64,000 bases of DNA from Donghicola tyrosinivorans (GTDB lineage Bacteria; Pseudomonadota; Alphaproteobacteria; Rhodobacterales; Rhodobacteraceae). Shown in pieces: positions 55,897 through 57,957 of the stretch. The stretch is taken from contig NZ_PVTQ01000012.1 of the NCBI RefSeq assembly GCF_003003355.1, forward strand, positions 1-64,000, given 5' to 3'. Under the pieces are notes generated by a model that searched no databases, was not told the origin of the DNA, and saw nothing but the letters and a program-made list of their open reading frames with translations. Numbering within the stretch: the stretch's first letter is position 1; each line of letters begins with the position of its first letter. The position numbers and the translations under genes were made by a program.

Positions 55897-56760
55897 TTAC
55901 TGGTTGATCGGCGACAGCAGATCGACGTTCGTGACCAGATTGCGCACCCCGTGCGCGTGATCTTCGTCAAACATGTTATCCGCATACCAAGCGCCAACAG
56001 TGTTGATGTCCACTTTGATCACCTCGGGGCGAACCGACCAAGTGACCTGAAACGGCGAGGCCTTTTCATTGTAGCTGGGGCCAGTGGTCGAACCCAGATA
56101 GGCGATCGGCGTGCCGGTGTTTTCCGGCACATTCGGTGCCTGCCAATAACCGTTCACCTGCTGGACATCCGCCAGCGTACGGAAATCGATCGCGTTTGCA
56201 TCGTTGACCAGAACCATCACCTGCGTCTCAACACGCAGCTGCGGGTTGCCGGTCGAATCCGCAAGACATGCGCCAAGGGTCGGACCCGGTTCAATGTCGC
56301 TGGTGGTGTGGACAAAGTGGACCTCAATGGTCTGGCCGGACTGCAGCAGGCCATGCTCGCCAGTTCCGATCGGTGCGGCCAGCGGCGCCAGTTCGGCCTC
56401 GGTCAAATCGCCGTCATAGACGTAACCGGTACCCCAGCCTTCGCCGTCACCATTGCCACGGAAGGTCGAGAACTGACCGCCCGCGTGTTCAGCACCATCA
56501 TGGAAGTGGATGTTGCACAGGTTCATCTGGCTGGCAGGAGGTGCCATCGAGAACACCCGCGGGTTGCCACCCACAGTGTAGCGCAGATCGCGGGGCGACT
56601 GGGGACCAAAGCCTGCGTCTTCTGTCGCCTCGGCCAAAACAGCGCGCTGTGCGTCGATCACAGCATCTGCCACCTCTGCATGTTCGCTGGTTCCCGCGAC
56701 AGCTGCTATGCTTGCCGCAAGAAACGCCGTTACCGATAGACCGGTTGTCATGATTTTCAT
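55897..56760 (-). CDS. Delta-class carbonic anhydrase-like secreted protein
   Basis: 287 residues with a signal peptide (MKIMTTGLSVTAFLAASIAAVAG). NLCNIHFHDGAEHAGGQFS (HxH plus H) and IEVHFVHTTSD (HxxH) look like the zinc-binding histidines of delta-class carbonic anhydrases (CA_like family), which are known in diatoms and dinoflagellates and annotated in some marine bacteria. It would interconvert CO2 and bicarbonate in the periplasm. AAGGGAG lies nine bases before the ATG at 56760. Convergent with the importer operon; activity is not provable from sequence. Confidence 0.78.
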   Translation of the reverse strand: MKIMTTGLSVTAFLAASIAAVAGTSEHAEVADAVIDAQRAVLAEATEDAGFGPQSPRDLRYTVGGNPRVFSMAPPASQMNLCNIHFHDGAEHAGGQFSTFRGNGDGEGWGTGYVYDGDLTEAELAPLAAPIGTGEHGLLQSGQTIEVHFVHTTSDIEPGPTLGACLADSTGNPQLRVETQVMVLVNDANAIDFRTLADVQQVNGYWQAPNVPENTGTPIAYLGSTTGPSYNEKASPFQVTWSVRPEVIKVDINTVGAWYADNMFDEDHAHGVRNLVTNVDLLSPINQ

Positions 56761-56784
56761 GGAAAACTCCCTTACATCGTTAAA

Positions 56785-56808
56785 GAAAATTGCAGAGCTG
56801 CAAATTTT
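56785..56808. promoter_or_regulatory. Dyad upstream of carbonic anhydrase gene
   Basis: TTGCAG-AG-CTGCAA (56790-56803) is perfect and extends into AAAA/TTTT arms. It lies 30-43 bases before the carbonic anhydrase ATG, at an operator or leader position. The arms share TGCAA with Mur/Zur-like sites, but the match is loose. Confidence 0.45.
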
Positions 56809-56906
56809 GTCCAGCGACACTAAAGGGAAACTGTTCTAACAAAAGTTTAATATACCTTAAGAAGTAATCTTTTACCCCAATACCCTATAACGTTGGCAAA
56901 ACGAAA

Positions 56907-56936
56907 GAAGGGCTGGCACCGCAGCACCTGCCCTTC
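56907..56936 (-). terminator. Terminator of the hemP mini-operon
   Basis: On the minus strand GAAGGGC and GCCCTTC close a stem of about 11 pairs with one mismatch, followed by TTTCGTTTT. It sits 30 bases after the hemP stop. Confidence 0.8.
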
Positions 56937-56965
56937 CTACGATCCTACAAGACGCCTCCTGAGGA

Positions 56966-57136
56966 TTACTTGGTCAGGATCAACTTGCCCTGACGGGTGA
57001 TCCGAAGGGTGTATATCTGGTCACCCAGCTGGATCAGGGCCTGAGCGCCCCCGCCTGTCAGTTCCTCGGCAAGGTGCAGGGGCAGTTCGGGCGAATGGGC
57101 ACTGGCGGTGCGGAAAGTCGTAGGCATCATGGTCAT
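56966..57136 (-). CDS. hemP: Hemin uptake protein HemP
   Basis: A 56-residue protein. It reads MTMMPTTFRTASAHSPELP, then LAEELTGGGAQALIQLGDQ, then IYTLRITRQGKLILTK. The C-terminal half is the HemP family: a GG.AL..G..Y.LR.TR.GKLILTK pattern. It starts at 57136 with GGAG nine bases upstream. HemP proteins go with haem uptake systems and are under iron control; no other haem gene is in the window. Preceded by a 47-residue gene and followed by a terminator. Confidence 0.88.
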   Translation of the reverse strand: MTMMPTTFRTASAHSPELPLHLAEELTGGGAQALIQLGDQIYTLRITRQGKLILTK

Positions 57137-57169
57137 CTTGCGTGTCTCCGGTTGTCGGGGCGAAGGGGT

Positions 57170-57313
57170 TCAGCGGTCGCCAAATTCGATCCGGTCCAGC
57201 AGGCGCTCGGTATCCAGATCGACGGGCCACGACAACTCGGCAAGGATCGCCCGCACGTCGGCTGCGCGCTCGCGCAGACTGCGGGCAGTTCGGGTCTTCT
57301 GATCTTGGGTCAT
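57170..57313 (-). CDS. Small protein of 47 residues upstream of hemP
   Basis: A charged helix-rich protein (MTQDQKTRTARSLRERAADV, then RAILAELSWPVDLDTERLLD, ending RIEFGDR). No family recognised. It has an ATG, a complete frame, high-GC third positions as in neighbouring genes, and a stop 33 nt before hemP. Dyad, this gene, hemP and terminator line up as one short transcript, which supports it being real. The ribosome site is weak (GGA 11 bases upstream). Confidence 0.55.
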   Translation of the reverse strand: MTQDQKTRTARSLRERAADVRAILAELSWPVDLDTERLLDRIEFGDR

Positions 57314-57369
57314 GTCAAAGCAATCCGTCTAAGAATGGCAACTGGCTGACCCGTTGAAGGCTGGCTGAC

Positions 57370-57397
57370 CTAAACCTGACTTTTTTAGTCGGTTTAG
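57370..57397. promoter_or_regulatory. Iron-operon-type dyad upstream of the hemP transcript
   Basis: CTAAACC and GGTTTAG flank an inner TGAC-TTTTTT-AGTC, a near-perfect inverted repeat 57 bp before the small-protein start. Position and hemP suggest an iron-responsive site such as the Rhodobacterales Iron-Rhodo-box/IscR or Irr type. I cannot match a consensus from memory with certainty. Confidence 0.5.
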
Positions 57398-57418
57398 TCA
57401 AGGCCCTTCCTTGCGCAA

Positions 57419-57447
57419 ATAAAAAAGGCCCGCAGCAGCGGGCCTTT
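57419..57447 (-). terminator. Terminator of the peroxiredoxin gene
   Basis: AAAGGCCCGC, a 4-nt loop and GCGGGCCTTT lie 22 bases beyond the peroxiredoxin stop. Read on the minus strand the stem is followed by a run of six T. Confidence 0.92.
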
Positions 57448-57468
57448 CGTGCCATCAATTCAGGCAGA

Positions 57469-57957
57469 TCAGAGGGCGTCAACCACCGCTTCGCCCGCCG
57501 ACAGAGTGCAAACTCCGGGGCTTTCCTCAACGTTCAGAAGGGTCACGGTGCCGTCTTCGACCACCATCGCGAACCGCTTGGAGCGGCCAATCAGGCCCGC
57601 GGGCGGCGCGGTGAAATCAAGACCCAGCGCCTTGGTAAAGCTGCCGTCCGCATCGCCAAGGAAGGTCAGCCCCGCCTCTTTCGCGCCAGTCGATTCGGCC
57701 CACGCGGCCATCACGAAGGGATCGTTGACCGACACGCAGATGATCTCTTCAACACCCTTTTCGGCCAGCGCATCCTTGCTGCGGATAAAGCTGGGAACGT
57801 GAGCGGTGCTGCACACACCGGTATAGGCCCCGGGCAAACCGAAAATGACAACCTTGCGGCCTTTGACCTTGTCGGCCAGCGCCACAGATTCGGGCCCTTG
57901 GTCGCCCAAACGCAACAAATTGGCCTCTGGCAAAGCCTGTCCGGTGGAAATGGTCAT
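57469..57957 (-). CDS. Peroxiredoxin, Prx5 (AhpE/BAS1-hybrid) type
   Basis: 162 residues. The peroxidatic C49 is in PGAYTGVCSTAHVPSF, and a second C150 (PGVCTLSAGEAVV) is in the place of the resolving Cys of Prx5. It reduces hydrogen peroxide and alkyl hydroperoxides with thioredoxin or glutaredoxin. GAGAGG lies upstream of the ATG at 57957. It is divergent from the ferredoxin-reductase-like gene, so the two may answer the same oxidative signal. Confidence 0.93.
   Translation of the reverse strand: MTISTGQALPEANLLRLGDQGPESVALADKVKGRKVVIFGLPGAYTGVCSTAHVPSFIRSKDALAEKGVEEIICVSVNDPFVMAAWAESTGAKEAGLTFLGDADGSFTKALGLDFTAPPAGLIGRSKRFAMVVEDGTVTLLNVEESPGVCTLSAGEAVVDAL

Follow-up and report, generated by a model that had tools for sequence, protein, structure and literature searches.

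A 47-codon open reading frame (ORF) lies just before hemP in Donghicola tyrosinivorans, and the locus raises the question of whether this frame is a gene and what it might do beside HemP. The locus is on contig 12 (NZ_PVTQ01000012.1) of a Donghicola-like genome of 4.68 Mb, and the window analysed here is a stretch of 64,000 nucleotides from that contig. On the minus strand, the order is peroxiredoxin terminator, TTGACT, dyad, AGCC element, 47-codon ORF, hemP and hairpin. A first-pass annotation had proposed a mini-operon of a small protein and HemP behind an iron-type dyad. It had overlooked that the small gene has a widespread family, that members usually overlap hemP by 4 nt, and that a leader RNA element stands between the dyad and the gene. 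The dyad, the small ORF, hemP and the terminator-like hairpin were all located on the minus strand where claimed, and the operon is supported by sequence evidence, with cotranscription being inferred. The features are as follows.

57469-57957, minus strand: peroxiredoxin gene upstream of the hemP unit (Pfam Redoxin, 4.4e-30)
57423-57448, minus strand: intrinsic terminator of the upstream peroxiredoxin gene (terminator scan; 11-pair stem and T tail)
57396-57401, minus strand: probable -35 hexamer TTGACT, read by eye
57375-57393, minus strand: Iron-Rhodo-box-like dyad ACCGACTAAAAAAGTCAGG, probable IscR operator, with the core GACTAAAAAAGTC at 57378-57390
57373-57378, minus strand: weak -10-like CAGGTT, 17 nt after TTGACT, read by eye
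57339-57370, minus strand: HmuP-responsive-like RNA element of the 5' leader, consisting of AGCCA, hairpin and AGCC (70 loci aligned, with covariation)
57170-57313, minus strand: 47-codon microprotein gene with ATG start, first cistron (same place throughout the genus; purifying selection)
56966-57136, minus strand: hemP, 56 codons, second cistron (PF10636, E=1.4e-15)
56902-56941, minus strand: terminator-like hairpin after hemP with a weak T tail TTTCGTTTTG (inverted repeat)
55897-56820, minus strand: delta-class carbonic anhydrase gene downstream of hemP (PF10563, E=3.4e-73)

The peroxiredoxin terminator, whose fold (57418-57455) reaches -20.9 kcal/mol (z -3.95), sets the hemP unit apart from the upstream gene. 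At the other end, the fold of 56895-56950 around the hairpin after hemP reaches -28.7 kcal/mol (z -5.4; none of 200 shuffles equally stable), and this hairpin is absent from the terminator-scan list. The sigma-70 scan reports no promoter at the locus, and the assignment of the -35 and -10 elements is therefore an inference. The ribosome site of the 47-codon ORF is weak, consisting of GGA only, and hemP follows the microprotein stop after 33 nt with its own GGAG.

The identity of HemP is certain from its match to PF10636 (57.3 bits against a cut-off of 25). Its closest named relatives, at 89% identity each, are from Donghicola mangrovi, D. eburneus and one MAG. Among 198 genomes drawn from the family Rhodobacteraceae, nearly all of different genera, hemP is present in 112 and has no match in 86. 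It co-occurs with HemS, as 58 of the 60 HemS genomes carry hemP. The HemS domain has no match in the genome of the window and is present in D. mangrovi; the window's genome keeps hemP without the usual haem-degradation protein. The three neighbours tested, namely the peroxiredoxin, the delta carbonic anhydrase and a pyridine-nucleotide oxidoreductase, are non-haem genes. Together with the missing HemS match, this agrees, as far as tested, with the first-pass annotation's remark that the pair stands without other haem genes.

The 47-codon ORF proves to be a genuine, conserved gene that codes for protein. An ORF of 46-47 codons is found at the same position in all four Donghicola genomes examined, each with hemP, and the outcome that had been named as refuting the gene, its loss in close relatives with hemP, did not occur. 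Between the MAG Co_bin.45 and D. eburneus, the ORF carries 18 synonymous differences and 1 non-synonymous difference (pN/pS 0.02). Comparison of the window's ORF with the other copies of the genus gives pN/pS of 0.46-0.55 for the complete gene, falling to 0.22-0.32 within codons 17-45. Overall, in-frame values of 0.02-0.55 contrast with 0.93-5.69 in the two other frames, and hemP gives 0.03-0.12 for comparison. From this pattern, it follows that selection acts on the protein. A chance open frame would be short and without a credible match in the protein family libraries, as this ORF is, but the codon substitution pattern, the conserved place and the recurrence across the family make such an explanation virtually untenable.

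The 47-residue protein matches nothing in Pfam at E<=10, and its single match in NCBIfam (E=0.28) is far below the cut-off. Likewise, nothing in the protein family libraries was matched at E<=0.1 by the 32 aligned family members, the window's copy included. Relatives of 50-69 residues are annotated as 'hypothetical protein' in five plasmid records, with four distinct annotated members (UWS81829.1, WP_157598951.1, WP_172975795.1 and QIE43010.1). That routine gene finders would pass over so short a gene is correct only in part, as it fails for these longer relatives.

Judged by sequence comparison, the protein is a member of a fast-evolving microprotein family with the C-terminal motif LExLLDRxExR. 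A single-sequence search of the 198 genomes clearly found the same-genus copy alone. Such a search is blind to the family, which becomes visible only through reading of the ORFs preceding hemP. These ORFs were read at 130 hemP loci, the genus set included, and many of them end in an LExLLDRxExR-like motif. The window's copy, directly before hemP, carries TERLLDRIE near its C-terminus. The regular expression used for seeding was devised after viewing the whole set. Three checks were therefore made as well, by cross-validation, on further loci and by a search of whole genomes, although the seeds for the cross-validation were again chosen with this expression. Half-trained hidden Markov models (HMMs) found 48 segments of at least 8 bits in the slot before hemP, each from a different locus (44 without the window's genus). 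None of the 1973 other same-strand segments and none of the 2093 antisense segments reached this score. The window's copy scored 25.7 bits in cross-validation, with two same-genus loci in the training half; the four Donghicola loci were split over both halves, while other genomes were represented by one per genus. With the iterated HMM, a family member precedes hemP at 58 of the 130 loci and in 56 of the 112 hemP-bearing genomes, and the gene went undetected in the remaining 56. Iteration raised off-target scores (best 9.6 bits), and the 58-locus set is therefore in-sample.

A profile search of the 198 genomes, blind to the position of hemP, gave 32 matches at E<=0.01, of which 29 are directly upstream of hemP. 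The profile was built from named loci, at most 33 candidates were scored per genome, and coordinates were matched to hemP by eye. At least four of the genomes with matches before hemP had also supplied profile rows. Two of the other three matches (L249 and L250) are credible, and the third, inside an 804-residue frame, is probably due to chance. At further named hemP loci, copies of training loci excluded, 25 of 76 score at least 8 bits, as do 9 of 23 other further loci, a few of which share a genus with training loci. Off-slot segments of at least 8 bits number 9 in the named set and 8 in the other set, L249 and L250 among the latter. By name, the gene was found in Rhodobacter viridis, R. aestuarii, R. 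maris, Roseivivax, Pseudoruegeria aquimaris, Tateyamaria omphalii and a Phaeobacter, and a candidate in Planktomarina falls just under 8 bits. It was not detected in the examined loci of Paracoccus, Amylibacter, Amaricoccus and Rhizobiales, and none of 28 hemP loci outside the family scored at least 8 bits. No publication on a small gene before hemP was found at title and abstract level in the open-licence literature.

The two credible copies away from hemP have settings of their own. At L249 (1629-1820, minus strand), the microprotein gene stands behind dyads and AGCC repeats in a genome without a hemP match, and the next gene is convergent. At L250 (1469-1687, minus strand), it overlaps by ATGA a second gene, here called gene X, in a genome with HemS and without a hemP match. 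Protein X has 150-160 residues and the motif RRPLMRHxxxCxCxGxDE (L242:1662-2144, L244:1641-2123, L246:1644-2102 and L250:1020-1472), with no Pfam family above cut-off. Gene X is located within 400 nt after hemP at 44 of the 130 loci. Across genomes, the presence of the microprotein is associated neither with HemS (p=0.34) nor with gene X (p=0.26).

In most carriers, the microprotein gene is joined closely to hemP. Its stop overlaps the hemP start by 4 nt, as ATGA or GTGA, at 47 of 58 loci, and the two genes are thus probably translated together. This overlap is usual and not universal. The window and its genus are exceptions with a gap of 28-33 nt and a separate ribosome site, the gap being 33 nt at the window's own locus. 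The ORF might then be a regulatory leader whose translation opens or couples translation of hemP, the peptide itself being inert. The frequent overlap, the position of the hemP ribosome site inside the ORF and the high divergence of the N-terminal half would suit such a leader. Yet in Donghicola the protein is under purifying selection despite the gap and the separate ribosome site, which argues against a mere coupling device. Moreover, at the 37 loci with the full motif, several synonymous codons encode the conserved E, D and R residues, and the copy at L249 persists without hemP. An inert leader peptide is accordingly considered improbable, and a selected protein remains the preferred reading. 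That the C-terminal motif merely reflects the ribosome site of hemP was separately ruled out by Donghicola and the codon variety.

In E. coli, uof couples to fur as an upstream ORF. The present arrangement shares with it a short ORF that immediately precedes a regulator gene and is coupled to it. It differs in that the peptide sequence of the microprotein is under selection and that the overlap is missing in Donghicola.

The dyad before the unit points to control by iron. The Iron-Rhodo-box is a 19-bp palindrome, and in Rhodobacter sphaeroides, where the box overlaps the hemP promoter, IscR binds the promoter region in vitro, according to the available part of PMC4618611. As given in the accessible portions of PMC3413700 and PMC4176601, hemP (RSP_6006) is induced by iron limitation in that species, with a rise of 5.2-fold in the wild type and 34.7-fold in an irr mutant (PMC3413700). 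On its sequence, the dyad of the window fits this box, a palindrome that precedes iron genes of Rhodobacteraceae, and of IscR, Irr and Fur the best-fitting regulator is IscR, whose control of this locus is inferred. With at most one mismatch, the core pattern occurs at 3 sites in the 4.68-Mb genome versus 20 for a reversed-pattern control. Another of the sites precedes a gene resembling, by eye, that of a ferric-iron ABC binding protein. A box scoring at least 10 of 14 is found before hemP at 82 of the 130 loci versus 6 of 130 shuffled regions. Binding by Irr or Fur/Mur instead of IscR was kept in view, as the first-pass annotation had listed Irr and Fur and both regulator types exist in R. 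sphaeroides, but it appears very unlikely given that the dyad sequence matches the Iron-Rhodo-box.

The box also bears on the place of the small gene. Where the small gene occurs, 37 of 58 loci have the box, and where it is missing, 45 of 72; the median distance from the box to the hemP domain is 291 nt in the first group and 153 nt in the second. These distances place the small gene downstream of the promoter and ahead of hemP, and it belongs to the transcript provided that the box coincides with the promoter. The split is not clean, because 17 of the 45 gene-less loci with a box also have it more than 220 nt from hemP. The hemP-irpA-bfd-bfr operon of R. sphaeroides offers a partial parallel, with the same type of box over the promoter and hemP at the head of named genes. 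In contrast, hemP of the window is not directly followed by irpA or bfr, and the available parts of the descriptions of that operon do not speak of a small ORF ahead of hemP.

Between the box and the microprotein gene, the leader carries a further conserved element. Of the 58 loci with the small gene, 48 had a box and suitable spacing, and AGCCA is found in 42 of these 48 leaders, where shuffles predict 8.6; of 48 coding controls, 4 contain it. An alignment of 70 loci reads AGCCA, a short variable hairpin and AGCC. Over nine pairs, 97 doubly changed cells were counted versus 42.9 in shuffles (reached in 0 of 500) and 12-39 with a slid partner. Double changes occur in 7 of the pairs, a number within the range of the shuffles (6.2; 176 of 500). 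The 70 loci were picked from the 130 by a score favouring complementarity of the inner stem, which flatters the inner helix and leaves the outer pairs unselected. The weight therefore belongs on the outer pairs, and columns 1-42 and 2-41 show 20 and 24 double changes. In the window itself, the element has no consensus fold by energy alone, its stability is no better than that of shuffles (z 0.17), and the outer helix is weak in the genus Donghicola by eye.

The best match of the RNA model (R2) in the window's genome is this leader (25.5 bits, E=0.03), an in-sample result. At 74 further loci, the model gave 49 matches at E<=0.1, of which 43 are in a hemP leader (43 of 72 hemP loci, one of them, L172, being a copy of a training locus) and 6 elsewhere. 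The element also occurs at loci without the small gene, where it is nearer to hemP (by a loose pattern, 48 of 58 with the gene and 33 of 72 without). Genome-wide, the model is unspecific: 12 of 30 retained loci are hemP leaders, a further one precedes a gene X that stands by itself, and by eye the majority of the others looked like coding or chance matches. In that one genome (L307), gene X stands alone behind the same RNA element. Rfam has no family at gathering score in the region of the window and only tRNAs in 13 relatives. A relaxed Rfam search gave 15 weak matches, mostly around the peroxiredoxin terminator. No publication on an element before hemP was found at title and abstract level in the open-licence literature.

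A similar element has been reported elsewhere. The available parts of PMC9131926 and PMC9241770 place the HmuP-responsive element, which is a direct-repeat motif, before haem receptor genes. In E. meliloti it is probably through an element of this type that HmuP acts, and PMC9131926, as far as available, favours a similar model for ChuP of C. violaceum. Accounts of the regulator differ between species: in the accessible sources, HemP/HmuP of B. japonicum and B. multivorans are described as DNA-binding activators, and HemP of S. maltophilia acts negatively. On the criterion of a direct-repeat motif in the 5' leader of a hemP-bearing genome, the leader element qualifies. The HmuP-shmR system of E. 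meliloti and the ChuP-chuR system of C. violaceum, insofar as PMC9131926 was available, share with the window a small HemP and a leader with AGCC direct repeats a few tens of nucleotides before the start. Unlike theirs, which precedes a haem receptor gene, the element of the window precedes the hemP operon with the microprotein as first cistron. It is named HmuP-responsive-like because it stands before the hemP unit and not before a haem receptor.

Among 48 hemP loci outside the family, the RNA model gave 20 matches at E<=1. At class level, among other alphaproteobacteria, 12 of 28 loci have a match 8-82 nt after hemP on the same strand, followed by a TonB-dependent receptor gene in 11 and a porin gene in 1, and at a thirteenth locus (L299) the match precedes a TonB receptor gene transcribed away from hemP. 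Within the family, TonB receptors were found at 16 of 20 HemS loci, and the receptor leaders of these 16 contain no match of at least 20 bits, one weak match of 16.3 bits apparently being present (L378). Taken together, matches before TonB receptors outside the family and none of at least 20 bits within it suggest that the element has moved onto the transcript of hemP itself. Separately, a weak match (16 bits) was noted outside the family at L232:3113-3162, with hemP on one side and, on the other, a gene resembling, by eye, that of a P19-type iron transport protein.

The leader element could instead be an unrelated stem-loop, such as an sRNA target or mRNA stabiliser, that merely resembles the HmuP-responsive element. 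Only one of the two C. violaceum elements quoted in the available part of PMC9131926 has both AGCC repeats by eye, and the TonB receptor leaders of the family lack a match of at least 20 bits, as would be compatible with such a resemblance. Nevertheless, outside the family, a model derived from hemP leaders picks out the region preceding TonB receptor genes (12 of the 13 matches beside hemP), which is the very position occupied by the published element. An unrelated stem-loop is therefore judged rather unlikely. By inference alone, HemP of the Rhodobacteraceae probably exerts feedback on the transcript that encodes it. Should HemP work on the element in the way suggested for E. meliloti and C. 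violaceum, this feedback would be positive.

The role of the microprotein is inferred from its form and company. An AlphaFold model of modest confidence (pLDDT 70, pTM 0.34) has helices at residues 4-26 and 35-45. No PDB entry was found by fold, and the best by profile (E=0.043) is not credible. In the 32-row alignment, D40 is nearly invariant and no Cys or His is conserved. The microprotein is probably a protein-protein adaptor in the HemP circuit rather than a binder of haem or metal, a function that is inferred. Its linkage to hemP argues for a role with HemP, and the copy at L249 without hemP and that at L250 overlapping gene X argue for some independence. It could accordingly be a general iron-starvation protein that shares the promoter and has no link with HemP. 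Both copies without hemP speak for this, the one at L249 having dyads and AGCC repeats in a leader that scores only 18.1 bits with the RNA model, as does the lack of association with HemS. On the other side, 29 of the 32 genome-wide matches are directly before hemP and the credible exceptions are only two, though 86 of the 198 genomes offer no hemP match. A general role is therefore regarded as somewhat unlikely while retaining real weight, and an adaptor beside HemP is preferred.

On balance, we incline towards reading the locus as a two-gene iron-limitation transcript with IscR control, a HmuP-responsive-like leader, the microprotein and HemP feedback. The conserved coding gene, the conserved gene order, the box and the structured leader of this model are computed. 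In the proposed sequence of events, Fe-S-loaded IscR would repress at the Iron-Rhodo-box, and a drop in iron would allow transcription from about position 57366, the promoter and start site being inferred. The 5' end of the mRNA would form the HmuP-responsive-like hairpin. The first cistron would yield the 47-residue microprotein with two predicted helices as an adaptor in the HemP circuit, and HemP from the second cistron would probably act on the hairpin and raise expression of its own transcript. The control by IscR here, the action of HemP on its own leader and the adaptor role are, like the promoter and start site, inferred without transcript, ribosome or protein data.

More tentatively, as a possibility to which we give less than even weight, HemP of the Rhodobacteraceae may have been rewired. 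Its RNA target would have moved from the haem receptor to the hemP mRNA, placing a post-transcriptional switch with positive feedback atop IscR control, with the dedicated, fast-evolving microprotein of the first cistron as a working part, either co-regulator or anti-regulator of HemP. HemP/HmuP is a widespread small regulator, for which activation at the DNA level or at the RNA level is disputed. An RNA element with covariation support in the leader of hemP itself, in many marine and phototrophic genera, makes it possible to test the RNA model and autoregulation directly. In half of the examined hemP-bearing genomes, the microprotein gene adjoins hemP, and it diverges too fast for ordinary similarity search. 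It is a compact, testable candidate component of bacterial iron control.
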